Positions 21,956-50,902 of a stretch of DNA of 63,196 nt are shown here, in pieces. Where the stretch lies: assembly GCF_020177335.1 (NCBI RefSeq), contig NZ_JAIVMG010000018.1, positions 1 to 63,196 on the forward strand, given 5' to 3'. Positions within the stretch are counted from its first letter, which is position 1. Each line of letters opens with the position of its first letter. A model generated the notes under the pieces. That model was not told the origin of the DNA. It ran no database searches and saw nothing but the letters and a program-made list of their open reading frames with translations. The DNA is from Stappia indica (GTDB lineage: Bacteria; Pseudomonadota; Alphaproteobacteria; Rhizobiales; Stappiaceae). The position numbers and the translations under genes are program-made.

Positions 21956-24346
21956 ATGGACACCTCCCGCAAGGCCGACCTGAAAGCCATTGAACAGAAG
22001 CTGCTCTGGCTCGCCTGCTGGACGGTCCACAATGCCAATCACCTGCGCGAGAAGACCGACGGCATGAAGGTCGGCGGCCACCAGGCGTCCTGCGCCTCGA
22101 TGGTGTCGATCATGACGGCGCTGTATTTCCACATCCTGCGGCCCGAAGACCGGGTGGCGGTCAAGCCGCACGCCTCGCCGGTGTTCCATGCCATGCAGTA
22201 TCTGGCCGGCAACCAGACCCGGGAAAAGCTGGAGGCCTTCCGCGCCTATGGCGGTGCCCAGTCCTACCCCAGCCGCACCAAGGACATCGACGACGTGGAC
22301 TTCTCCACCGGCTCGGTCGGCCTCGGCGTGGCGATCACCGCCTTTGCCTCGATGATCCAGGACTATCTTGTCGCCAAGCCGTTTGCCGCCGACCGCCCGG
22401 AAGGGCGGATGATCGCGCTGGTCGGCGATGCGGAGCTGGACGAGGGCAATGTCTACGAGGCCCTGCAGGAGGGCTGGAAACACGATCTGCGCAACACCTG
22501 GTGGATCATCGACTACAACCGCCAGAGCCTCGATGGGGTCGTGCGCGAGGGGCTGGCCGGTCGGATCGAGGCGATCTTCGGCGCCTTCGGCTGGGATGTG
22601 GTGCGGATCAAATACGGCGCGTTGCAGCGGGCGGCCTTCACCGAACCGGGCGGCGAGGCCCTGCGCGACTGGATCGACACCTGCCCGAACGCGCTCTATT
22701 CGGCGCTCTCCTTTCAGGGCGGTGCGGCCTGGCGCAAGCGGCTCCTCGACGATATCGGCGACCAGGGCGCCGTCACCCGGCTGATCGACAGCCGCTCCGA
22801 CGACGAATTGCAGGAGCTGATGAGCAATCTGGGCGGCCACTGCCTCGAAACCCTTGCCGACACCTTCGCCGAACAGGCCCGGCATGACCGGCCGGTCGCC
22901 TTCGTCGCCTACACCATCAAGGGCTGGAACACCCCGCTCGCCGGCCACAAGGACAATCACGCCGGGCTGATGACCCCGGCGCAGATGGAGGCCTTCCGCA
23001 CCCAGATGGGCGTGCGCGAGGGGCATGAATGGGAGCCGGCGGAAGGGCTCGCGCTTGACGCGAGCACCCTGTCGCGCCTCGTTGCCGAAACCCCGTTCTT
23101 CGCCGCCGGCCGCCGCCGCCATCAGGCCGCGACGGTCGCCACCCCCGGTCCGGTGCTGCTCGACGACCGGACGCTGTCGACGCAGGCCGGCTTTGGCAAG
23201 ATCCTCGACCAGCTCGCCAAATCGGATCACCCGCTGGCCGACCGGATCCTGACCACCTCGCCCGATGTCACGGTCTCGACCAATCTCGGCCCGTTCGTCA
23301 ACCGGCGCGGCCTGTTCGCCCGCGACACGCTGGCCGACACGTTCCGCGACCAGCGTATTCCCTCAGCGCAGAAATGGGCGTTCTCCCCCACCGGGCAGCA
23401 TATCGAACTGGGCATCGCCGAGATGAACCTGTTCCTGCTGCTGGGTGCCGCCGGCCTGTCCCATTCGCTGTTCGGCGAACGGCTGATCCCGGTCGGCACG
23501 CTCTACGATCCGTTCATCTCACGCGGGCTCGATGCGCTCAACTACGCCTGCTATCAGGACGCCCGCTTCATGGTGGTGGCCACCCCGTCCGGGGTGACGC
23601 TGGCGCCGGAGGGCGGCGCGCATCAGTCGGTCGCCACCCCGCTGATCGGCATGAGCCAGGACGGGCTGGCCGCGTTCGAGCCGGCCTGGCTCGACGAGCT
23701 GTCGGTGCTGATGGACTGGAGCTTCGACTATCTGCAGCGGGACGGTGACAGCGTTCCGGACGAACGCACCTGGCTGCGCGACGAGACCGGTGGCTCGGTC
23801 TACCTGCGCCTGTCAACCCGCGCGCTGGAGCAGCCGGCGCGGCGCGAGGACGATGCCTTCCGCCAAGGGGTGATCGACGGCGCCTACTGGCTGCGCGAAC
23901 CTGGACCGAACTGCGAGCTGGTGATTGCCTATCAGGGGGCGGTGGCGCCGGAGGCAATCGAGGCGGCGGGGCGGATCGGCACCGACCGGCGCGATATCGG
24001 CGTGCTTGCGGTCACCTCCGCCGACCGGCTCAACGCCGGCTGGCACGCGGCGATGCGCATGCGCAAGCGTGGCCATCGCGGCGCCCGCAGCCATATCGAA
24101 CGGCTGCTCGGCGGCCTGCCGTCCCATTGCACGCTGATCACCGTGCTTGACGGCCATCCGGCAACGCTGGCCTGGCTCGGCGGGGTGGCCGGCCATCGCA
24201 CGGCGGCGCTCGGGGTGGAGCATTTCGGCCAGACCGGCACGGTCGCCGATCTCTACCATCATTTCGGGATCGATACCGACGCCATCGTCGCCGCCGCCTC
24301 CGAAATCGCGCCGGGACGGCCGGTGCGGCTGGTCAATCCGATTTGA
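21956..24346 (+). CDS. thiamine-diphosphate E1-type 2-oxoacid dehydrogenase / transketolase-like protein (MdeB-like)
   Basis: 796 residues from the ATG at 21956 (MDTSRKADLKAIEQKLLW); ATGs one codon and four codons earlier share the GAGGAG site. The ThDP-binding motif is GDAELDEGNVYEAL... ending at IIDYNRQSLDG, as in homodimeric pyruvate dehydrogenase E1 (AceE). The second half has the pyrimidine-binding domain (GIAEMNLFLLLGAAG) and a transketolase C-terminal domain. In P. putida the same position holds mdeB, reported as a 2-oxobutanoate dehydrogenase E1-like protein. It is shorter than AceE (about 890), and no E2 or E3 gene is nearby, so which complex it serves is open. Confidence 0.82.
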   Translation: MDTSRKADLKAIEQKLLWLACWTVHNANHLREKTDGMKVGGHQASCASMVSIMTALYFHILRPEDRVAVKPHASPVFHAMQYLAGNQTREKLEAFRAYGGAQSYPSRTKDIDDVDFSTGSVGLGVAITAFASMIQDYLVAKPFAADRPEGRMIALVGDAELDEGNVYEALQEGWKHDLRNTWWIIDYNRQSLDGVVREGLAGRIEAIFGAFGWDVVRIKYGALQRAAFTEPGGEALRDWIDTCPNALYSALSFQGGAAWRKRLLDDIGDQGAVTRLIDSRSDDELQELMSNLGGHCLETLADTFAEQARHDRPVAFVAYTIKGWNTPLAGHKDNHAGLMTPAQMEAFRTQMGVREGHEWEPAEGLALDASTLSRLVAETPFFAAGRRRHQAATVATPGPVLLDDRTLSTQAGFGKILDQLAKSDHPLADRILTTSPDVTVSTNLGPFVNRRGLFARDTLADTFRDQRIPSAQKWAFSPTGQHIELGIAEMNLFLLLGAAGLSHSLFGERLIPVGTLYDPFISRGLDALNYACYQDARFMVVATPSGVTLAPEGGAHQSVATPLIGMSQDGLAAFEPAWLDELSVLMDWSFDYLQRDGDSVPDERTWLRDETGGSVYLRLSTRALEQPARREDDAFRQGVIDGAYWLREPGPNCELVIAYQGAVAPEAIEAAGRIGTDRRDIGVLAVTSADRLNAGWHAAMRMRKRGHRGARSHIERLLGGLPSHCTLITVLDGHPATLAWLGGVAGHRTAALGVEHFGQTGTVADLYHHFGIDTDAIVAAASEIAPGRPVRLVNPI

Positions 24347-24414
24347 GGGGGCCGATCTGAAGGCGTCGACCTGAGGGCGCCGACCTGGGGCGGCGTTCTG
24401 AGGGGGCCGACCTG
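24346..24414 (+). repeat. five imperfect 14-bp tandem repeats starting at the mdeB stop codon
   Basis: Units run 24346-24359, 24360-24373, 24374-24387, 24388-24400 (13 bp) and 24401-24414. The consensus is AGGGSGCCGACCTG. The array begins with the last base of the TGA stop. The unit length is not a multiple of three. Confidence 0.85.
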
Positions 24415-24434
24415 ATATTCGACATCAGACACCA

Positions 24435-34686: not shown

Positions 34687-35679
34687 CTACTTCCTCTTCC
34701 CGAACCGCACCGGCACGGTGAAGGTCAGGGTCGGGCCGGCAATGCTCTCGGGGATGGCGGGAAAAGGCGAGGCGCGGCGGGCAAGCTTGCGCAATTCGCG
34801 ATCAAGGGCGGCAACACCGGTCTTGCGCACCAGGCTCGCCCGTTTCACCCGGCCCGTGCGGTCGATGGTGATCTTCAGTTTGCCGACACCGTGCAAGGTG
34901 CCCGGCGTCGCACCGGGCGGGTAGCGTTTGTAGCGCTCCACCCGGCGCCGCAGCTTCAGCGCATAGGACGCCCTCTCGCCTTTCTTGCCCCCGGCCGCCG
35001 CGCGCTTGCCGGCGCCCACGTCGCCCTTGCGGGTGGAGACCTGCGCATCGCCGCGCCGGGAGGTACTGGCACGGGAGGCAGTCTTGCGCGGCGGCGCCTT
35101 CTCTGTTTCGCGAACAGGTTTGTGAACGGGGCGTTCGGGCGCCGGGCGCGGCAGCGGAGTTGTCTGAGGAGGTGTTGAGGTTTGCGCCATCTGCGCAACT
35201 CGCGTTGCGGCAGGATCAGGCAGAGCGTCCGTTGCAGGTTCTGAAGGAGCTTCCGGCACCTGTTGCGGCTCTGGCTGCGCCTCCGGCTCCGGCACGGGCG
35301 CGAGATCCGGGAGCGGCTCCGGTTCCGGCTGGGGCGCAGGTTTCGCCGGCGCTGCCGCCTCAGGACGAGGCTCCGAAGGCACGACCGAATCGGGCTCGGC
35401 CGCTCGCTCCGGTTCCGGCTGGCGCTCCGGCTCGGCTTGGGGCGTTTCCGGCTTCTCCTCGCCGGTCTCCGTCCCGGCGGTACGGTCCGCATCAGCACCG
35501 GCGGCACCCTCGCCAGCGTCTTCCAGAACCAGCACCGTCATCTCACCGGCGAGCGTGCCGCCGCTGTCCGTCTGGCCGGTGCCATCATCCGCCGTCGGCC
35601 AGAACACCGCCAGCCCGATGCCCAGATGCAGCAGCAGGGCGAGCACCAGCCCCACCCCCCAGGTCAGCGCCTCCCTCAT
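34687..35679 (-). CDS. tonB: TonB energy transducer of the B12 operon
   Basis: 330 residues. A single N-terminal membrane anchor (LVLALLLHLGIGLAVFW) includes the His of the TonB helix. A long Pro/Glu-rich periplasmic spacer (about 60-190) and a basic stretch follow. The C-terminal domain has YPPGATPGTLHGVGKLKITIDR and the ending TLTFTVPVRFGKRK. The ATG overlaps the exbD2 stop by four bases. Last gene of the btuB-tonB operon; it should power B12 import through BtuB with ExbB/ExbD. Confidence 0.9.
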   Translation of the reverse strand: MREALTWGVGLVLALLLHLGIGLAVFWPTADDGTGQTDSGGTLAGEMTVLVLEDAGEGAAGADADRTAGTETGEEKPETPQAEPERQPEPERAAEPDSVVPSEPRPEAAAPAKPAPQPEPEPLPDLAPVPEPEAQPEPQQVPEAPSEPATDALPDPAATRVAQMAQTSTPPQTTPLPRPAPERPVHKPVRETEKAPPRKTASRASTSRRGDAQVSTRKGDVGAGKRAAAGGKKGERASYALKLRRRVERYKRYPPGATPGTLHGVGKLKITIDRTGRVKRASLVRKTGVAALDRELRKLARRASPFPAIPESIAGPTLTFTVPVRFGKRK

Positions 35680-36101
35680 CTTGTCCGGACCTCCAGCATG
35701 ACGGCGCTGGCGCCGGCACCGCGCACCGCGCGGGCCAGCCGCAACACCTTGGCAAGATCCGCCCCGGCATCCGCCCGGATCGCCACGGGACGCGCTGGCC
35801 CCCCCTTCGACAGGTCGCCATCGGCCGAAATCCCATCGACAAGAGCGGTTGCCAGCGCCGCCAACACCGCCTCCTCGCCCAGAGCCGCGCCAAAGGCCAC
35901 CTCTCCGGCCGCATCCACATGCAGTCGCAACACCGCCCGGGCCGGCTCGGTTTGCGTAGCCTCGGCCGGCGTCACGGTGATCTTCGCCCGCTCCTCCACA
36001 CGGCCCATCAGCAACAGGAAGATCAACAGCAGAAAGACCACATTGATCAGCGGCAGCATCGGTTCCACCGGGCGCCGCCGCGCCTCCGGCGCGATCCTCA
36101 T
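35676..36101 (-). CDS. exbD2: ExbD-like protein 2 of the B12 operon; Asn replaces the membrane Asp
   Basis: 141 residues, single N-terminal helix and periplasmic domain. The helix reads LPLINVVFLLLIFLLLMG, so residue 20 is Asn where canonical ExbD/TolR/MotB have the proton-carrying Asp. The rest has a normal ExbD shape (VLRLHVDAAGEVAFGAA). The start ATG is the last of a chain of tandem-repeated ATG codons between exbD1 and this gene. It probably pairs with ExbD1 in an asymmetric complex with ExbB; this is inference. Confidence 0.85.
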   Translation of the reverse strand: MRIAPEARRRPVEPMLPLINVVFLLLIFLLLMGRVEERAKITVTPAEATQTEPARAVLRLHVDAAGEVAFGAALGEEAVLAALATALVDGISADGDLSKGGPARPVAIRADAGADLAKVLRLARAVRGAGASAVMLEVRTR

Positions 36102-36160
36102 GGCACGGCCCTCATGGCATGACCCTCATGTCCTGGGCCTCATGGCACGACCCTCAAGGC
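36096..36160 (-). repeat. 14-bp tandem repeat forming a start-stop minicistron relay
   Basis: Four full units (36096-36109, 36110-36123, 36124-36137, 36138-36151) and a partial one cover the exbD1 stop to the exbD2 start. On the minus strand each full unit carries ATGAGG. The ATGs at 36143, 36129 and 36115 each open five codons (MRPRT, MRVMP, MRAVP) and stop at a TGA that overlaps the next ATG (ATGA). The last ATG at 36101 is exbD2. Each GAGG lies about seven or eight bases before the next ATG, an ideal Shine-Dalgarno spacing. Confidence 0.9.
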
Positions 36161-36528
36161 TTTGCCTCCGGCTGCAGCGCGGCGCTCGCCGCGCCGGCCT
36201 CGCGCAGACGGTCCAGTGCATCGAGCCCCTGCTGCACGGCAACACCAGTGCCGATCCGCAGGACAATCGGCCGCTCGGCCGCAATCGCCGCCGCAATGCG
36301 CGCCTCATCTTCGGCCCCGCCGGCGAAACCGCCATCTTCGGCGAGACGCAGGATCAAGGGTTCGGTCTGGGGCGGCGTTGCCGCCGACCCGCCGCCGGCC
36401 AGCGGCAACAGCTGCAGCCGGTCGAAGCTGGAGACCAGCATGAAGAAGACGATCAGCAGGAAGATCACGTCGATCAGCGACGTCAGACCGACGCCGGGAC
36501 GGCGCGCCCTGTCCTCCTCCAGCCTCAC
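36154..36528 (-). CDS. exbD1: ExbD protein 1 of the B12 operon (canonical Asp)
   Basis: 124 residues. The N-terminal helix LTSLIDVIFLLIVFFMLVSSF keeps the conserved Asp (residue 20) that carries protons across the membrane. The periplasmic domain follows (EPLILRLAEDGGFAGG). The ATG overlaps the exbB stop by four bases. Its stop is followed by the 14-bp repeat relay that leads to exbD2. Confidence 0.9.
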   Translation of the reverse strand: MRLEEDRARRPGVGLTSLIDVIFLLIVFFMLVSSFDRLQLLPLAGGGSAATPPQTEPLILRLAEDGGFAGGAEDEARIAAAIAAERPIVLRIGTGVAVQQGLDALDRLREAGAASAALQPEAKP

Positions 36529-37166
36529 TGCGCCGCCGCCTGCCGGGCGGCTTCCGCCTTCGCCGGCTCAGTGACCGCATGCGGCGGTTCCGGTTCGGTC
36601 TCCAGCGCCTCGGTCGCCGCGACCTCCAACCGGAAGCGGAACCGGTCGACCAGAGCGTCGAGCAGGGCATGCAGCGCCAGCGCCAGAAGGGCGATCACCA
36701 TGCCCGCCGCCGTGGTGATCAGCGCTTCCCAGATGCCGCCGGCAAGATCCGCCGGTTTTACCGCCTCTCCGGAGGACTGCATCGCCTGAAAGGCGTCGAT
36801 CATGCCGAGCACCGTGCCGAGCAGCCCCAGCAGCGGCGCGGTGGTGACGATCAGCTCCAGCAGGCGAAAGCCGGTGCGCGCCTGGCGCAGATAGCCGCGC
36901 GCCAGAAGGGCCGCCTCCTCCGCAACCAGCGCGCGGTCGTCGCCGCGCAGCAGCCGGCGACGCAGATGGGCGGCAAGGCTTGCCGCCGCGCCGTGACCGG
37001 AGGCCGGGTCCTGAAAGGGGCGAAGCGCGGCAAGGCGCAGGACCGAGACGATGGCCGCCATCAGCGCGGCAACGGACAGGGCGAAGAGCGCCGCCATGGT
37101 CCAGCCGCCCCGGTCGAGCAACAACGCCGCCGCCGCGCCGAGCTGATCCATCAGGGCGCTGCTCAC
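36525..37166 (-). CDS. exbB: ExbB/TolQ-family proton channel subunit of the B12 operon
   Basis: 213 residues with three hydrophobic helices: WTMAALFALSVAALMAAIVSV, LIVTTAPLLGLLGTVLGMIDAF and LITTAAGMVIALLALALHALLDA. The APLLGLLGTVLGM signature is that of MotA/TolQ/ExbB channels. It overlaps the upstream gene's stop by four bases and exbD1's start by four. Together with ExbD it turns the proton motive force into TonB movement. Confidence 0.92.
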   Translation of the reverse strand: MSSALMDQLGAAAALLLDRGGWTMAALFALSVAALMAAIVSVLRLAALRPFQDPASGHGAAASLAAHLRRRLLRGDDRALVAEEAALLARGYLRQARTGFRLLELIVTTAPLLGLLGTVLGMIDAFQAMQSSGEAVKPADLAGGIWEALITTAAGMVIALLALALHALLDALVDRFRFRLEVAATEALETEPEPPHAVTEPAKAEAARQAAAQ

Positions 37167-38227
37167 GAGGCCTCTCCCTCATGGCCCGGATTGTCGGCGT
37201 CCATCTCCTCTGCATGCTGTCCGCTGCGGTCGAACACCGCCTGCCAGTCCCGCGCCCAGACAAGGCGGGCCGCATCGCCGGTGCTTTCCGCAGCACGGGC
37301 GATCTGGCGCAAGGTGTTGCGCAGGCCGATGCGCCCGGTCCGGGTCGTCGGTTCGGTGAAGGAGGCGGGATCCTCGCTGGCGACACAGGCAGCCAGCACC
37401 GCGCCGCGCACCGCCAGATACCCGTCCGGCCCATAGGCGGCCAGCAGCTCCTCGAACGCCGCCTGCCGGGAGGCGTCATAGGCAATGTCCTCGCCCGCCG
37501 GCCCCGCCACCGGACTTGCCGGGTGCAGATAGGCGCAAGGCACGAATCCCTCCGGCACGGGGATATTGGCCGAATGGCTCCTCCCACTCTTCAGCAGCTT
37601 GGGTAGGACATGGGTGTGCGGCCCGTCCGGCGATACCCCGCCGGTCGCCGGTCCGCCGATCTTCTGATAGACCTCGACCCGGCCGAGCCGGGAGATCACC
37701 ACCCGGTGCGGGTGCGCCTCAAGGATCGCCGCCATCGCCGCATTGCCCGGCGCCATCACGGAGGTGCCTGCACCTGCGCGCAAGGTGGCGACCAGCTCCG
37801 GATCCCGGGTGCGGATGCAGAAATCCACCTGCAACTGCCCCAGCCCCATGTCGAACAGCAGCGCGCCCCGGTCCTCGGCACGCAAGGCGTCCTCATCAGG
37901 CCCCAGTTCCGTCAGGACACTGCGCCCGGACATGGCCGCCTGCGGCGCGGGCAGGCACAGCGCCAGCCCAAGCCCCCAGCGATGGGCGCGCGGGCTCAGG
38001 GTCTCGTAAGCCAAGGCGTGCGCGCCGGCCAGCGCCGCACCGTCAAGGCGGATGCCGCCCTTCTCGCTCACCCGGGTGAGCTTTTCGGGGGCATCGACAA
38101 GGCGGATGTCGTCCGGCCGCTGGTGAAACTCGCCGATCGCGCCGAAGGAGCCGATGCTCCAGCCGGCGTCGATATCGCGCAAGGCAGCGCTCAGGTGATC
38201 ATGCAATGCGCGGCAGGCAGCATTCAT
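37163..38227 (-). CDS. uncharacterised conserved protein in the B12 uptake operon
   Basis: 354 residues from the ATG at 38227 (MNAACRALHDHL), with AAGGAG six bases upstream. No family is recognised with certainty. No signal peptide or membrane segment is seen, so it is probably cytoplasmic. A polar, strongly conserved-looking core is DGPHTHVLPKLL, then SANIPVPEGFVPCAYLHP, which has an HxH and later Cys and His residues that could bind a metal or cofactor. It overlaps btuD by 29 bases and exbB by four, so it is made together with the transporter. A role in B12 handling is inference only. Confidence 0.8.
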   Translation of the reverse strand: MNAACRALHDHLSAALRDIDAGWSIGSFGAIGEFHQRPDDIRLVDAPEKLTRVSEKGGIRLDGAALAGAHALAYETLSPRAHRWGLGLALCLPAPQAAMSGRSVLTELGPDEDALRAEDRGALLFDMGLGQLQVDFCIRTRDPELVATLRAGAGTSVMAPGNAAMAAILEAHPHRVVISRLGRVEVYQKIGGPATGGVSPDGPHTHVLPKLLKSGRSHSANIPVPEGFVPCAYLHPASPVAGPAGEDIAYDASRQAAFEELLAAYGPDGYLAVRGAVLAACVASEDPASFTEPTTRTGRIGLRNTLRQIARAAESTGDAARLVWARDWQAVFDRSGQHAEEMDADNPGHEGEAS

Positions 38228-39053
38228 TTCCCTCTCCTTCTTCCTCGATTGGCGTGACTTCGGAGGTTTGTGCGGAGGCAGATGGGGCAAGCCCCTCCGG
38301 CACCACGGCGAAGCCGCCGCCGATGGTAAGCGGACGCACGGCAATGCCGTAGACCCGTGCCATGCGGTCGGCCGTCATCACCTCTTCCGGCGCGCCATCG
38401 GCGACGAGCCGCGCCCGGTCCATCAGCAGCAACCGGTCGCACCAGCGGCTGGCAAGGGTGAGATCATGCAAGGACACGAGCACGCTGCGCCCACCGGCGA
38501 CAATGTCGCGAAACATCTGCATCAGGGCGATCTGATGCGCCGGATCGAGCCCGCTCGCCGGCTCGTCGGCGATCAGCACCTCCGGGTCCTGCGCCAGCAT
38601 GCGGGCGATCAGCACCCGCGCCTGCTCGCCGCCGGACAAGGTATCGAAGGCACGTTCCGCGAAACCGTCCACCGACATGGCCGCAAGCGCCTCGGCAACC
38701 TTGCGCCGATCCACCGCCGAAGGCCCGGCAAAGCGGCCCTGATGCGGAAGACGCGCCAGCATCACCACGTCGCGGCAGGCGAGCGGCCAGTGCACCATGC
38801 GCTCCTGCGGCATGAAGGCGAGCGCCCGCGCCCGGCGCGCCGGGCTCATTGCCGCCAGATCCTCGCCGTTCCAGACCGCTGTGCCGCTGGCCGGCAGCAG
38901 GCCGGCGATGGCCCGCATCAGGGTCGATTTCCCTGCGCCATTGGGGCCGATCAGGCCAATGAGCTGCGGCCGGGGGGCGGCAAAGGAAACGCTATCGACG
39001 GTCAGCCGGTCGCCGCGCCGCACCGTGATCCGATCACACACCAGCCCGCTCAT
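38199..39053 (-). CDS. btuD: ABC transporter ATPase, probable cobalamin importer BtuD
   Basis: 284 residues from the ATG at 39053 (MSGLVCDRITVRRGD), preceded by AAGGAGG. Walker A is LIGPNGAGKSTLMRAI, the signature LSGGEQARVLIARM, Walker B EVLIADEPASGLD, H-loop VSLHDL. It belongs to the FepC/BtuD class of iron- or B12-importers. The B12 role rests on the riboswitch and btuB in the same operon. The ATG overlaps the permease stop by four bases. Confidence 0.88.
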   Translation of the reverse strand: MSGLVCDRITVRRGDRLTVDSVSFAAPRPQLIGLIGPNGAGKSTLMRAIAGLLPASGTAVWNGEDLAAMSPARRARALAFMPQERMVHWPLACRDVVMLARLPHQGRFAGPSAVDRRKVAEALAAMSVDGFAERAFDTLSGGEQARVLIARMLAQDPEVLIADEPASGLDPAHQIALMQMFRDIVAGGRSVLVSLHDLTLASRWCDRLLLMDRARLVADGAPEEVMTADRMARVYGIAVRPLTIGGGFAVVPEGLAPSASAQTSEVTPIEEEGEGNECCLPRIA

Positions 39054-40048: not shown

Positions 40049-40929
40049 GATCCGCCTCCAGGCACTGCGGCGACCAGCGCCGCGACCGCTTCCACGGTGA
40101 AGGGGGCGCCGCAGATCCAGTAGCGGTCATCCGACCAGAGCCGGCGTTCCGGTCCGAACCATTTTTGCAAGGCCGGATGGGTCAGGATCTCGCCGGAGCG
40201 CGCCGGGGTGGCGGTCCAGCGGCGCCAGGACATCACATAGTCCGGATTGGCGACAATCAGGCTTTCCAGCGGCAGGCGCGTTGCCCCGGACAAGCCGAGC
40301 TCGGTGCCCAGATGACGAAAGCCGGCGGCCGTGACGATCTCAGCTTCCAGCGTGCCGCCGCCGGTGGTGTAGCTGTTTGCGGCATAGGAGCCGAGCACCG
40401 GGCGGCGCGTGTCCCGCGTACCTGTCCGCAGCCGCGCCAGTTCCCGGTCGAAGGTGGCGGCGAGCGCCCGTGCCCGCTCCTCGCGCTGCAACAGCGCGCC
40501 CATCCGCGTCAGATTTTCGCGAATATCGGCAAAGCTGCGGGCCGGGGCGAACTCCGCGACCCGCACGCCGAGCCGCTTCAGGAGATTGACCGTCGCCCGG
40601 GTGGTGTAGGTGCCGGCGATCACCAGATCCGGGTCAAGACGCAGGATTTCCTCCGCCAGACCGTGATTGCGCGGCAGGGCGCGGGCGCGGGCGCTGAGGA
40701 CCGAGACGGTTTCATCGGAGGCCAGATGGGACAGCGCCCGGAGCTGCCCGGGCGCGGCCACCAGCAGGGCGAGCTGGTCGGTACACAGATTCATCGACAC
40801 CACCCGCTCTGGCGGCGGGCCGACTTCTCCGGAGCCCCCGGCCACCCCGGCCGACTCGCCAGCCCAAACACCGGCGCCGGAGAGCGCAAGCAGGACGGCG
40901 GCAAGCAGGGAGGCGGCCGGGCTGCTCAT
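40045..40929 (-). CDS. btuF: periplasmic substrate-binding protein, probable cobalamin-binding BtuF
   Basis: 294 residues. A signal peptide (LLAAVLLALSGAGVWAG) precedes a helical-backbone binding protein of the BtuF/FepB type: RVVSMNLCTDQLALLVAAP, PDLVIAGTYTTRATVNLLKRLG, then TLEAEIVTAAGFRH. It would pass the vitamin from BtuB to BtuC/D. The start overlaps the btuB stop by one base (TGATG). Confidence 0.88.
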   Translation of the reverse strand: MSSPAASLLAAVLLALSGAGVWAGESAGVAGGSGEVGPPPERVVSMNLCTDQLALLVAAPGQLRALSHLASDETVSVLSARARALPRNHGLAEEILRLDPDLVIAGTYTTRATVNLLKRLGVRVAEFAPARSFADIRENLTRMGALLQREERARALAATFDRELARLRTGTRDTRRPVLGSYAANSYTTGGGTLEAEIVTAAGFRHLGTELGLSGATRLPLESLIVANPDYVMSWRRWTATPARSGEILTHPALQKWFGPERRLWSDDRYWICGAPFTVEAVAALVAAVPGGGS

Positions 40930-42863
40930 CAGAAGGTGCCCTTGAGGCCGACGAAGGCGGTCAGCCCTTGCGTATTATAGCCATAGACCTCCTGGTAGTC
41001 CTGATCGAACAGATTTTCCACCCGGCCGAACAGCTGCACGTGATCGCTCAGTTGGTAATCGGCACCGACATTGACCAGCCAGTACTGATCGAGGGTAACC
41101 CGGGTCCAGGGCGTCGAGGGGATGAACTCCAGATCCTGCATCCGGCCGTTGTAGACCGCATCGAGGAACAGGTTGCCCCGCCCCTCGTCGAAGCCATAGA
41201 CGAGACCGAGCGAGCCGGAATGACGCGGCCGGCGCACCTCCTCCAGCCCGGACGGCTCGGTCGCATCGAGATAGGTGTAGCTCACCTTGGCATGCAGGTT
41301 TTCCGTGAGGTCGACGCCGAGCGCCACTTCCACGCCCTGGCGCCGGCTGGTGCCGTCGAGGTTGACGGGAGTGCTGACCCAGCCGGGCAGGTAGCGGGTC
41401 TGGATTTCATCCTCCAGCCGCTCGTTGAAATAGGTGACATCGGCGACCAGCCGGTCCTCCCAGAACTTCTGTTCGATGCCGATGTCCCAGCCGAAGTTCT
41501 TCTCCGGCCGCAGGTTCGGATTGCCGATGAAGGAGGAGGGAATGAAGCCGAACTGCTCGAAGAAGGTCGGGTTGGTGACGCCGGTGCCGATCGAGGCGTG
41601 GAACCGGGTTCCCGTCTCCGGCACCAGATAGGCGGCGCTGGCACTGTAGGTCAGGGCATTCTTGAAGTCGTCGTTCTGGTCGAAGCGCAGCGCCCCGCTG
41701 ATGAACAGATTGTCGTAGAACTCGCCCCGGTATTCCGCCACATAGCCGAAAAGATCGCGGCTGCGGGTCGGCACCTGCGAGGGGGTGCCGGGATGGGTAT
41801 TGCGGAAGGTCTCCTGTTCCCATTCCACGGCGCCGGTCAGACTGTGCGCGGCGGAGAGAAACTCCGGCGTCTCGAAGGCGAAGGTGCCCTGATAGCTGGC
41901 ATGATAGCGGCGGTCGTGGTTGCCGTTTTCGCTGCCGCTGCCATAGCCGCGCCGCTCCACATCGGTCAGCTCGAACCGGGTCTTCTGAACGAACCGGTCC
42001 TCGAACAGCGACCAGGAGGCGCCGACCCCACCAGAAAACTCACGGGTGGCATTGTAGCCGGGCGTATCGATCACCTGCCCCTCGGTCGGGGTCGGCGGGA
42101 ATCTGTAGTCCTGATCGTCCGTGTCGGACTTGCGGTCGACATAGCGCAGGTTGGCATCGAGCCGGAAGGTTTCCGACAGGTCCCAGGCGCCCTTGCCGTA
42201 GAGGTTCAGGTTCCGGTCGCCATCCTTTTCCGAGCCGTAGTCGGACAGGTTGAATCCGTCGGTACGCCGGAAGGCGCCGGACAGGGCCAGATCGAAATTC
42301 TCGCCGCCACCGCGCAGATCGACGGCACCAAGCCAGGTGCGGTCGGTGCCGACCTCGGTGCGGCCGCTGACCTCGTAACCGTCACGAACACCGCCCTTGG
42401 TGATGATATGGATCACACCGGAGGCGGCATTGGAGCCATAAAGCGCGCTTTGCGGCCCGCGCAGCACCTCGATCCGCTCCACATCGGCGACCTGCAGGCC
42501 GCCAAAGTCGAACTCGCCGCTGGAGGAGGAGGAGACCTCGACCCCGTCGATCAGCACCAGCACGTGATTGGCTTCCGAGCCGCGCAGACGGACCTGGGTC
42601 AGGCCGCCGACCGAGCCGGTGCGCGAGACGGAAACGCCCGGCACCTTGCGCAAGGCGTCGGCGAGGTAGCGGGTCTGGCTCCGCTCCAGATCCTCGCCGG
42701 TGATCACCGTATAGGCCCGGCCGACCTTTTCCGCGCCAAGCGGCGTGCGCCCGGCGGAGACCACCACCTCTTCCAGTTCCAGATCCTGCGCCAGCGCCGG
42801 CGCCGTCGCGGCACAGAATAGTCCCAGTCCAAACATGCCGATCCGGCAGGCAGTTGCAGTCAT
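40929..42863 (-). CDS. btuB: TonB-dependent vitamin B12 outer-membrane receptor BtuB
   Basis: 644 residues from the ATG at 42863. A signal peptide ends near ALAQ. A TonB box-like LEEVVVSAG is followed by the plug (RYLADALRKVPGVSVSRTGSVGG, RIEVLRGPQSALYGSNAASG). A 22-strand barrel ends in GLKGTF. The cobalamin riboswitch 225 bp upstream and the BtuFCD-like genes downstream give the substrate. An upstream ATG (MSGDAKRC) is open but the signal peptide favours 42863. Confidence 0.93.
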   Translation of the reverse strand: MTATACRIGMFGLGLFCAATAPALAQDLELEEVVVSAGRTPLGAEKVGRAYTVITGEDLERSQTRYLADALRKVPGVSVSRTGSVGGLTQVRLRGSEANHVLVLIDGVEVSSSSSGEFDFGGLQVADVERIEVLRGPQSALYGSNAASGVIHIITKGGVRDGYEVSGRTEVGTDRTWLGAVDLRGGGENFDLALSGAFRRTDGFNLSDYGSEKDGDRNLNLYGKGAWDLSETFRLDANLRYVDRKSDTDDQDYRFPPTPTEGQVIDTPGYNATREFSGGVGASWSLFEDRFVQKTRFELTDVERRGYGSGSENGNHDRRYHASYQGTFAFETPEFLSAAHSLTGAVEWEQETFRNTHPGTPSQVPTRSRDLFGYVAEYRGEFYDNLFISGALRFDQNDDFKNALTYSASAAYLVPETGTRFHASIGTGVTNPTFFEQFGFIPSSFIGNPNLRPEKNFGWDIGIEQKFWEDRLVADVTYFNERLEDEIQTRYLPGWVSTPVNLDGTSRRQGVEVALGVDLTENLHAKVSYTYLDATEPSGLEEVRRPRHSGSLGLVYGFDEGRGNLFLDAVYNGRMQDLEFIPSTPWTRVTLDQYWLVNVGADYQLSDHVQLFGRVENLFDQDYQEVYGYNTQGLTAFVGLKGTF

Positions 42864-43087
42864 CCTGACACACCCCAGGTGTTTGCCGGAGCACCTTTTG
42901 GCGTCTCCGGACATCACGTGTTCCAGGTCCCGGATGGCAGAGCGCACGGTTTGCCGCGCGCGAACACCTTGTGGGGTCACCGTGCGAGCGAAACCGAGGC
43001 CCCGCCAGGCGGGTCCTGATTTTCGGGTGTCACCTCAACGGAAAGCCGCACCTCGACACACCCCGTATCGAAGGTCGGGTGACCGAG

Positions 43088-43276
43088 AGCGGCAGGTCTC
43101 CTGGCTTGCGGGTCAGAGCCGGGCATCCACCTTCCCAACACCATGCCAAGGCAGGTGTCAGTGGCCTTTTCAGATGCCGGCTATCCGCTCACAGTTGCGG
43201 GGGCAGCCACGGTTTTGGCCCCTGATGGGTACGCCTCACCGTGTTCCCTATTCATCCGTTTTTACGGAACCACTCT
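43088..43276 (-). promoter_or_regulatory. cobalamin (B12) riboswitch upstream of btuB
   Basis: On the minus strand the aptamer landmarks occur in order: TAGGGAA with CGGTG, GCAACTGTGAGCGG, the B12-box-like GGCCACTGACACC, and AAGCCAGGAGACCTGCC. The expression platform between the aptamer and the btuB start (about 225 bp) is not clear; a GC hairpin (GACCCGCC/GGCGGGGCC type) near 43000 might be a terminator or a translation sequester. Adenosylcobalamin binding should turn btuB off. Confidence 0.93.
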
Positions 43277-43286
43277 CAAGGGTTAA

Positions 43287-43315
43287 CTATGTCCTAACCC
43301 GCAAGGGGGCGTCAA
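43287..43315 (-). promoter_or_regulatory. probable btuB operon promoter
   Basis: Minus-strand TTGACG and ACATAG are 17 bp apart. The start site would be near 43280, a few bases before the riboswitch aptamer. A GGGTTA/TAACCC inverted repeat (43280-43300) covers the -10. Confidence 0.5.
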
Positions 43316-50200: not shown

Positions 50201-50902
50201 ATGTCCGCCCCTGATCTGTTGCAGCCCGTCCTTGCCCTGATCGAACTGGGCGGGCCGGTGGTGGCGCTGCTTGCCGGCCTGTCGATCATCGCCCTTGCCC
50301 TCCTCATGCTGAAGCTCGGCCAGTTCCTGCAAGCCCGGGTCGGCCGCCCGACCCGGGCGCGCGCCGCCGTGCTGCACTGGAGCCACGGCCGGCGCGGCGA
50401 TGCCTGGCGGGCCCTGAGCGGGGCGACGAGCGCGGCGGAGGAAGCGGTGGCCATGGCCATGCGCTTTGCCGAGCGCCCCGAGGGCGAGAAAGCAACGGTC
50501 GAGGAAGACATCGCCCGGGTCGCCGGCGAGCGCTTCCACCAGCTTGGCCGGGGGCTGAAGGCGCTCGATTCCATTGCCCAGATCGCGCCGCTGCTCGGTC
50601 TGTTCGGCACGGTGCTGGGCATGATCGAGGCCTTCCAGCAGCTCCAATTGGCGGGCAATGCGGTCGATCCATCGGCGCTGGCCGGCGGCATCTGGGTGGC
50701 GCTGTTGACCACCGCCGCAGGGCTTGCGGTCGCCATGCCGGTGTCGCTCGCCGTCACCTATCTGGAAGAACGCCTGGAAAGCGAGCGGGTGGCGGTGGAA
50801 ACCCTGCCCATGGCCATCCTCTTGCACGGGATCGGTGCCCCCGCGCTGCCGCTGACCGATGAGGTTGCGGCACTTGCCCCCCGGGTGGCCCATGCGCGTT
50901 GA
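50201..50902 (+). CDS. exbB: ExbB/TolQ-family proton channel subunit of the heme operon
   Basis: 233 residues with three helices: VVALLAGLSIIALALLMLKL, IAPLLGLFGTVLGMIEAFQQ, and a third at WVALLTTAAGLAVAMPVSLAV. The signature APLLGLFGTVLGM matches its B12-operon paralogue. It has the same neighbours (exbD1, exbD2, tonB) and overlaps exbD1 by 11 bases. Confidence 0.92.
   Translation: MSAPDLLQPVLALIELGGPVVALLAGLSIIALALLMLKLGQFLQARVGRPTRARAAVLHWSHGRRGDAWRALSGATSAAEEAVAMAMRFAERPEGEKATVEEDIARVAGERFHQLGRGLKALDSIAQIAPLLGLFGTVLGMIEAFQQLQLAGNAVDPSALAGGIWVALLTTAAGLAVAMPVSLAVTYLEERLESERVAVETLPMAILLHGIGAPALPLTDEVAALAPRVAHAR

Follow-up and report, generated by a model that had tools for sequence, protein, structure and literature searches.

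In a 63,196-nucleotide stretch of DNA from Stappia indica (contig NZ_JAIVMG010000018.1, positions 1 to 63,196, hereafter the window), the genes exbD1 and exbD2, two ExbD/TolR family members of a cobalamin (B12) operon, are separated on the minus strand by a gap of 52 nt, which is occupied by a tandem array of 14-bp units linking the two genes through four serial five-codon minicistrons. We consider it probable (roughly 0.6) that this array is a translation-coupling bridge formed by local tandem expansion, and that such arrays are retained when their period keeps the chain of stop and start codons intact. Related genomes preserve the ancestral state of the junction, similar arrays recur between other gene pairs, and the completeness of their chains depends on both the period and the repeated motif.

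Layout and origin of the exbD array

The gene exbD1 (36154..36528, minus strand, GTG start; Pfam PF02472, E 5.7e-12) ends in GCA AAG CCT TGA, so that its 3' end reads TTGA, and exbD2 (35676..36101, minus strand; PF02472, E 2.1e-14) opens at the ATG at 36101 with ATG AGG ATC GCG CC, these first 14 nt being the fifth unit of the array. The five units extend from 36157 to 36088 on the minus strand (TTGAGGGTCGTGCC, ATGAGGCCCAGGAC, ATGAGGGTCATGCC, ATGAGGGCCGTGCC and ATGAGGATCGCGCC), and Tandem Repeats Finder delimits the repeat at 36088-36160 with a period of 14 and 5.2 copies. Both the coordinates and the repeat search thus agree with the original prediction, made from the sequence alone, that a 14-bp repeat fills the 52 bp between the two genes. 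A different start for exbD2 was ruled out, as the sister species G013 uses the same one.

Read on the minus strand, the array comprises four minicistrons, namely TTG AGG GTC GTG CCA TGA (36140..36157, peptide LRVVP), which overlaps the exbD1 stop by 4 nt, ATG AGG CCC AGG ACA TGA (36126..36143, MRPRT), ATG AGG GTC ATG CCA TGA (36112..36129, MRVMP) and ATG AGG GCC GTG CCA TGA (36098..36115, MRAVP), whose stop overlaps the exbD2 start. Their starts lie at TTG 36157 and ATG 36143, 36129 and 36115, and every stop shares 4 nt with the next start. Since the TTG minicistron begins within the exbD1 stop, the chain runs from exbD1 to exbD2 without a break through five successive 4-nt stop/start overlaps, where the overlaps expected for termination-reinitiation are of 1 or 4 nt. 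The three ATG minicistrons had been recognized before, each opening five codons closed by a TGA that overlaps the next ATG, and their translations agree; the one opened by TTG 36157 had been overlooked, which brings the total to four.

A scan for Shine–Dalgarno (SD) motifs located GAGG 8 nt upstream of the starts at 36143, 36129 and 36115 and of the exbD2 ATG, a spacing previously given as about 7 bases, while the first minicistron is preceded at 7 nt by GGAGG, which lies inside exbD1 near its 3' end. The GAGG of the final unit has a predicted pairing energy of -6.1 kcal/mol with the anti-SD sequence. As in a leader open reading frame (ORF), each minicistron holds the SD motif of the following cistron, with its GAGG at 8 nt, and ends at the following start, and this arrangement is repeated over four steps. 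The equality of period and repeat length, which had been put forward as a feature of its own, is numerically true but a tautology, because an 18-nt cistron overlapping its neighbor by 4 nt is a 14-nt unit.

The units differ pairwise at 2 to 6 of 14 positions, and the core columns (start, stop and GG) carry only 1 of the 10 minority letters (P 0.047), a hint of constraint that is suggestive only. Very improbable, in our estimation, is the reading of the array as an RNA structure or as a protein-binding repeat in DNA or RNA: short self-complementary stretches do occur in the units (CATG, TCATGCCATGA), but the predicted fold is no better than that of shuffled sequences (z 0.55), by which a special RNA fold was rejected, Rfam at gathering thresholds yields a riboswitch alone in the window, and the spacers vary from unit to unit.

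Among 87 genomes of the family, 12 contain a relative of the DUF6925 gene, which lies upstream of exbB in the same operon, and in the stretches examined the order DUF6925, exbB, exbD1, exbD2 is present in three genomes: that of the window, its congener G013, and G080, which belongs to another genus. In both G013 and G080, exbD1 and exbD2 overlap directly by ATGA and the repeat is absent, from which it follows that the array was derived in the lineage of the window. By this comparison, the array has grown out of the start region of exbD2, whose first 14 nt are its unit. Third codon positions in the flanking genes diverge from those of G013 by 16 to 26%, and differences of 2 to 6 in 14 between units beside such divergence indicate that the array is not brand new. 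Plasmid records, which were searched for strain-level copy numbers, gave a single match, of 81 bp inside exbB.

Two patterns of the array, ATGAN10ATGAN10ATGA and ATGAGGN8ATGAGGN8ATGAGG, each have the exbD junction as their sole site in the 4.66-Mb genome, and therefore the repeat is not a product of chance. Once a tandem duplication has taken place at an ATGA overlap, however, the relay layout would arise in roughly 1 in 3 to 4 cases, near-automatically, because a period of 2 modulo 3 and the absence of an early stop are all that it requires. Searching for the unit with up to one mismatch returned two further sites in the 4.66 Mb, about the level of chance by a rough estimate. These two sites rule out a dispersed and mobile multi-locus family in this genome of the kind formed by mycobacterial interspersed repetitive units (MIRUs).

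Period and motif of similar arrays

Before the main scan, we set the expectation that arrays at gene junctions should show periods of 2 modulo 3 if the chain matters. A scan of genome contigs for ATGAGGN8 repeated three times returned at least 117 stretches. Among the matches listed, 122 arrays were placed, of which 79 were 7-bp ATGAGGN repeats and 8 passed a junction test based on ORFs only, some of these 8 being doubtful in GC-rich DNA. The 7-bp arrays, common among the hits (L048-L164) and in many cases found in Bacteroidota records, also give a period of 14 when two units are taken together. Several arrays among the matches listed resemble 14-bp relays between genes; in Sinosporangium album, three units run into a glycosyltransferase family 4 gene.

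In the class of the window's genome, three ATGAGG motifs at short spacing were found in 34 of 385 genomes. Ten loci were chosen by hand, the other matches having been seen on one strand only or left aside, and three of the ten were complete relays: L614, from a genome of the same order as the window's, leads from a HATPase gene to a SpoIIE gene, L615 from MlaD to DUF2155, and L504 from a tetrapyrrole methylase/RsmI_C gene to UPF0102.

The period test itself was performed on the Actinomycete genomes, the class of S. album, in which 91 of 394 had an ATGAGG array match. Considering equal-gap arrays only, the coding frame on both sides was determined from codon-position GC content, requiring that GC at third positions minus GC at second positions exceed 0.2 on each side, and the chain was traced from the upstream stop to the downstream start. 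The array of the window would fail this test and is excluded from its counts, because the end of exbD1 scores 0.17. A total of 68 arrays were placed, comprising all 40 with a period that is not a multiple of 3 and 28 of the 31 with a multiple of 3. Complete relays accounted for 13 of 18 arrays at period 14 and 1 of 10 at other periods of 2 modulo 3 (1 of 4 at period 17), and for none of the 12 at 1 modulo 3 or the 28 at multiples of 3. Fisher tests, which are exploratory, gave P 0.003 for 2 versus 1 modulo 3 and P 0.004 for period 14 versus the other 2-modulo-3 periods, and both values were the same after dropping one of the orthologous arrays L554 and L556; the reading in terms of 14 bp and SD was made after seeing the relay data, and the ATGACC control described below came later still.

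These relays contain 2 to 6 minicistrons each and connect pairs such as response regulator and histidine kinase, two ABC permeases, NAD kinase and an SMC_N protein, alanyl-tRNA synthetase and RuvX, and an ABC ATPase and MacB/FtsX. The recurrence of relay arrays at unrelated junctions, nearly all of the complete ones with the 14-bp period that maintains the frame as well as the SD spacing, lends indirect support to the view that the chain matters. Relays of period 17, with six-codon minicistrons, were seen in L349 on a viral contig and in L575 in an Actinomycete genome. Period-14 ATGAGG arrays also lie directly 5' of a gene with no clear overlapping upstream gene (L559, L578 and L616), in a leader-like position. 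At the 4-nt junctions of L585, L589 and L598, repeats of period 15 or 18 lengthen the downstream protein in frame at its N-terminus and form no minicistrons.

These frequencies bear on the main rival of the coupling bridge, by which the duplication was neutral slippage that has been tolerated, exbD2 being initiated independently from the GAGG 8 nt upstream in the last unit while the minicistrons lie idle. That unit alone does possess an SD-like motif at this spacing and with the pairing energy given above, and the relay layout would be a frequent outcome of duplication in any case. Against this, periods 13 and 16 would also be compatible with a usable SD spacing and yet gave no relays among four Actinomycete arrays, as opposed to 13 of 18 at period 14. 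We regard neutral slippage as unlikely, though less so than the other alternatives weighed here.

Control motifs were examined in the same 394 genomes for ATGACC, which keeps the start-stop overlap and lacks GG, and additionally for ATCAGG, which contains neither ATG nor TGA; the counts for both are lower bounds. The ATGACC set consisted of 28 equal-gap arrays with a period that is not a multiple of 3, picked by eye among the matches listed, one of them too near a contig end to be placed. Relays in this set numbered at least 1 among the 17 arrays with periods of 2 modulo 3 and none among the 11 with periods of 1 modulo 3, and period 14 was found in at least 3 of the 28 fetched arrays. For ATCAGG, at least 7 of 87 arrays among the matches listed had period 14, and none of these seven stood at a co-directed junction. 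The outcomes for the two motifs indicate that complete relays go with start-stop, GG and a length of about 14 bp, which would be the requirements of a unit serving as SD, start and stop together.

Persistence of such an array was followed at the alaS-ruvX junction, which was traced in its genus with matches in 47 of 49 genomes and 30 loci read. Three species, whose DNA is 90-91% identical, each have a 38-nt gap made of three minicistrons, while a fourth (80% identity) has a 10-nt gap with one minicistron opening at GTG, a form shared by two more loci with 10-nt gaps. At the remaining 24 loci the gaps measure -4 (10 loci), -1 (3), 2 (9), 14 (1) and 20 nt (1). Within the three-species array, none of 18 core columns is variable, compared with 11 of 24 spacer columns (P 0.0008), the core columns including the alaS stop, which is constrained anyway. 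The simplest reading of this alignment is some constraint on the start, stop and SD of the other units, and the preservation of the core in upstream units while the spacers drift argues against idle minicistrons.

The same junction informs a further alternative, in which the array is an attenuating ladder that sheds some of the ribosomes at every minicistron, and the number of units would thereby set the ExbD1:ExbD2 ratio. Minicistron number does vary, from 2 to 6 across relays and between 3 and 1 among the alaS-ruvX relatives, and serial loss would be expected if re-initiation is below 100%. On the other hand, all three closely similar alaS-ruvX species have three minicistrons, the SD present in every unit could allow fresh initiation to offset the loss, and relays link many kinds of gene pairs beyond subunit pairs. 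We find the ladder improbable. Comparison of repeat number among relatives, which had been proposed as a check on the idea that copy number tunes this ratio, was carried out at the level of species and lent that idea no support, with no repeat in G013 and G080 and counts of 3, 3, 3 and then 1 at alaS-ruvX.

A probable coupling bridge and the evidence against it

In the reading that we favor, the ancestral exbD1/exbD2 pair would have overlapped by ATGA, and a 14-bp segment beginning with that overlap (ATGA, GG and 8 nt, corresponding to the exbD2 5' end) would have been duplicated repeatedly in the lineage of the window. As 14 is 2 modulo 3, the stop of every copy again overlaps the start of the next, and the GAGG of each copy would fall 8 nt before the following start. 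Ribosomes finishing exbD1 may re-initiate immediately at TTG 36157, or 10 nt downstream at ATG 36143, translate the five codons and start anew until exbD2 is reached. At each step a ribosome would have two routes, either restarting on the spot at the overlapping start codon or moving 10 nt ahead by way of the GAGG that overlaps the stop, and the added DNA would leave the chain of 4-nt overlaps from DUF6925 to tonB intact. Translation of the minicistrons, the hand-over of a single ribosome along them and a resulting effect on the level of ExbD2 would all follow from this scheme. Arrays of this type would recur at many junctions and be kept if their period preserves the chain.

The available text of one study on Escherichia coli reporters describes coupling across a 38-nt gap as 80-90% lower for two gene pairs and as lost altogether for a third (PMC10666635). 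By analogy, one would expect weaker coupling of exbD1 and exbD2 across a 52-nt gap, though not across a chain of 4-nt overlaps. Taken together with the delivery of ribosomes by engineered short ORFs (see below), these published gap effects led us to interpret the array as a coupling-preserving bridge.

Several observations weigh against the bridge. The window harbors a second period-14 TGAGG array at 24344-24415 on the plus strand (TGAGGGGGCCGATC, TGAAGGCGTCGACC, TGAGGGCGCCGACC, ...), which together with the exbD array makes up all the matches to TGARGN9 repeated three times in the whole genome. Its start coincides with the stop codon of an 870-aa ORF, and as the ORF that comes next is convergent, no gene follows in the direction of the array; it demonstrates that arrays can arise at a stop codon without coupling, as neutral slippage would have it. 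How an array originates (by slippage) and why it is retained (by coupling) are separate questions. Among the period-14 Actinomycete arrays, 5 of 18 are not relays: L551 has a direct overlap inside the array, L577 of S. album has its upstream stop 7 nt short of the array, no clear upstream gene is present at L559 and L578, and L564 has coding on the other strand. Two of the 11 ATGACC arrays at 1 modulo 3 (L673 and L680) stand at a gene junction although their chain is incomplete, which shows that completeness of the chain is not an absolute requirement. The crude distribution of periods differed from the control with P 0.03, a value that became P 1.0 without four genomes bearing a 19-bp clade repeat, and period 14 alone gave P 0.078 after the same trimming; these crude counts omit further rows of arrays already counted, many unequal-gap rows, which would have been filtered out anyway, and G602, the last (period 15, string identical to G776) despite its equal gaps. 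The viral collection, with periods of 11 to 17 (period 12 among the matches listed), held too few junction arrays for a test of frame. Additionally, coupling across gaps of 25 nt and more in some studies is mentioned in the available text of a review (PMC12548453), and accordingly a 52-nt gap may have done no harm.

Beyond the single locus, a recurrent bacterial class may be envisaged, in which tandem 14-bp units of start, stop and SD grow at 4-nt overlaps and are kept if their period preserves both the chain of frames and the SD spacing, with ribosomes passing through serial five-codon cistrons. We see the case for such a class as evenly balanced.

Operon context and relation to known systems

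The operon is headed by a cobalamin riboswitch (43074..43289, minus strand; Rfam RF00174, 120 bits) upstream of its TonB-dependent receptor gene (40929-42980, assigned by Pfam), and its products further include a BtuF-like periplasmic binding protein, FecCD, an ABC protein, DUF6925, ExbB, the two ExbD proteins and TonB. The DUF6925 gene (37163-38344, minus strand) is located between the ABC ATPase gene and exbB (36525..37166, minus strand; PF01618), which overlaps exbD1 by 4 nt, and tonB (34687..35679, minus strand; PF03544) overlaps exbD2 by 4 nt. The statement that most genes of the operon overlap by one to four bases holds for four pairs, all at 4 nt (DUF6925/exbB, exbB/exbD1, exbD2/tonB and the BtuF-like/FecCD pair), and fails for FecCD/ABC and ABC/DUF6925, which overlap by more than 4 nt as listed ORFs. 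When the four minicistrons are counted, the chain of 4-nt overlaps is unbroken from DUF6925 to tonB. A second ExbB-like gene is present in the window at about 50426-50800 on the plus strand.

In bicistronic designs, a short upstream ORF with an internal SD feeds ribosomes to the start of a target gene. The engineered nfORF, as described in the available text of its report, likewise delivers ribosomes from a short ORF whose SD is internal and whose stop adjoins the target start, and in the first construct both its start and its stop were required (PMC13255528). The exbD array shares with these designs the short ORF with internal SD and a stop next to the following start, whereas they are engineered and single and the array is natural and tandem. 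Its steps also show the -4 nt spacing common in ATGA termination-reinitiation, with the SD inside the upstream cistron; the available text on that mechanism covers direct pairs, while the array comprises several minimal cistrons in series (PMC6728339, PMC10666635).

The closest natural counterpart is the MIRU (Supply 1997, as summarized in PMC12548453), situated at operon junctions, whose internal ORF shares 4 nt with the gene and is thereby coupled to it. In the available text, MIRUs are given as apparently mobile repeats of 40-100 bp that occupy 41 places on one chromosome, with variable copy number and an expression of the gene thought to be little altered (PMC12548453, PMC2734929). The internal ORFs of the exbD array are coupled to their neighbors by the same -4 nt spacing, but its unit is of 14 bp, is not dispersed, derives from the local gene start and carries its own GAGG. 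The array is hence not a MIRU but would work alike. No description of such 14-bp arrays was found in the open-access literature, as judged by titles and the openings of abstracts and with most subscription journals outside the scope, and the class is apparently undescribed.

Gaps filled in this way would probably be annotated as plain intergenic DNA. Whether coupling proceeds by re-initiation of the same ribosome or by unfolding and fresh initiation is still debated, according to the available text of PMC12548453, and an array of minimal cistrons offers a natural multi-step test of these models, in that the number of units, their period and the SD can each be changed in isolation and the predictions differ. 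If the proposed class holds true, serial re-initiation would have left its mark on genomes in the form of the period rule. This rule also suggests a route by which an operon may gain tens of base pairs between its genes without uncoupling them.
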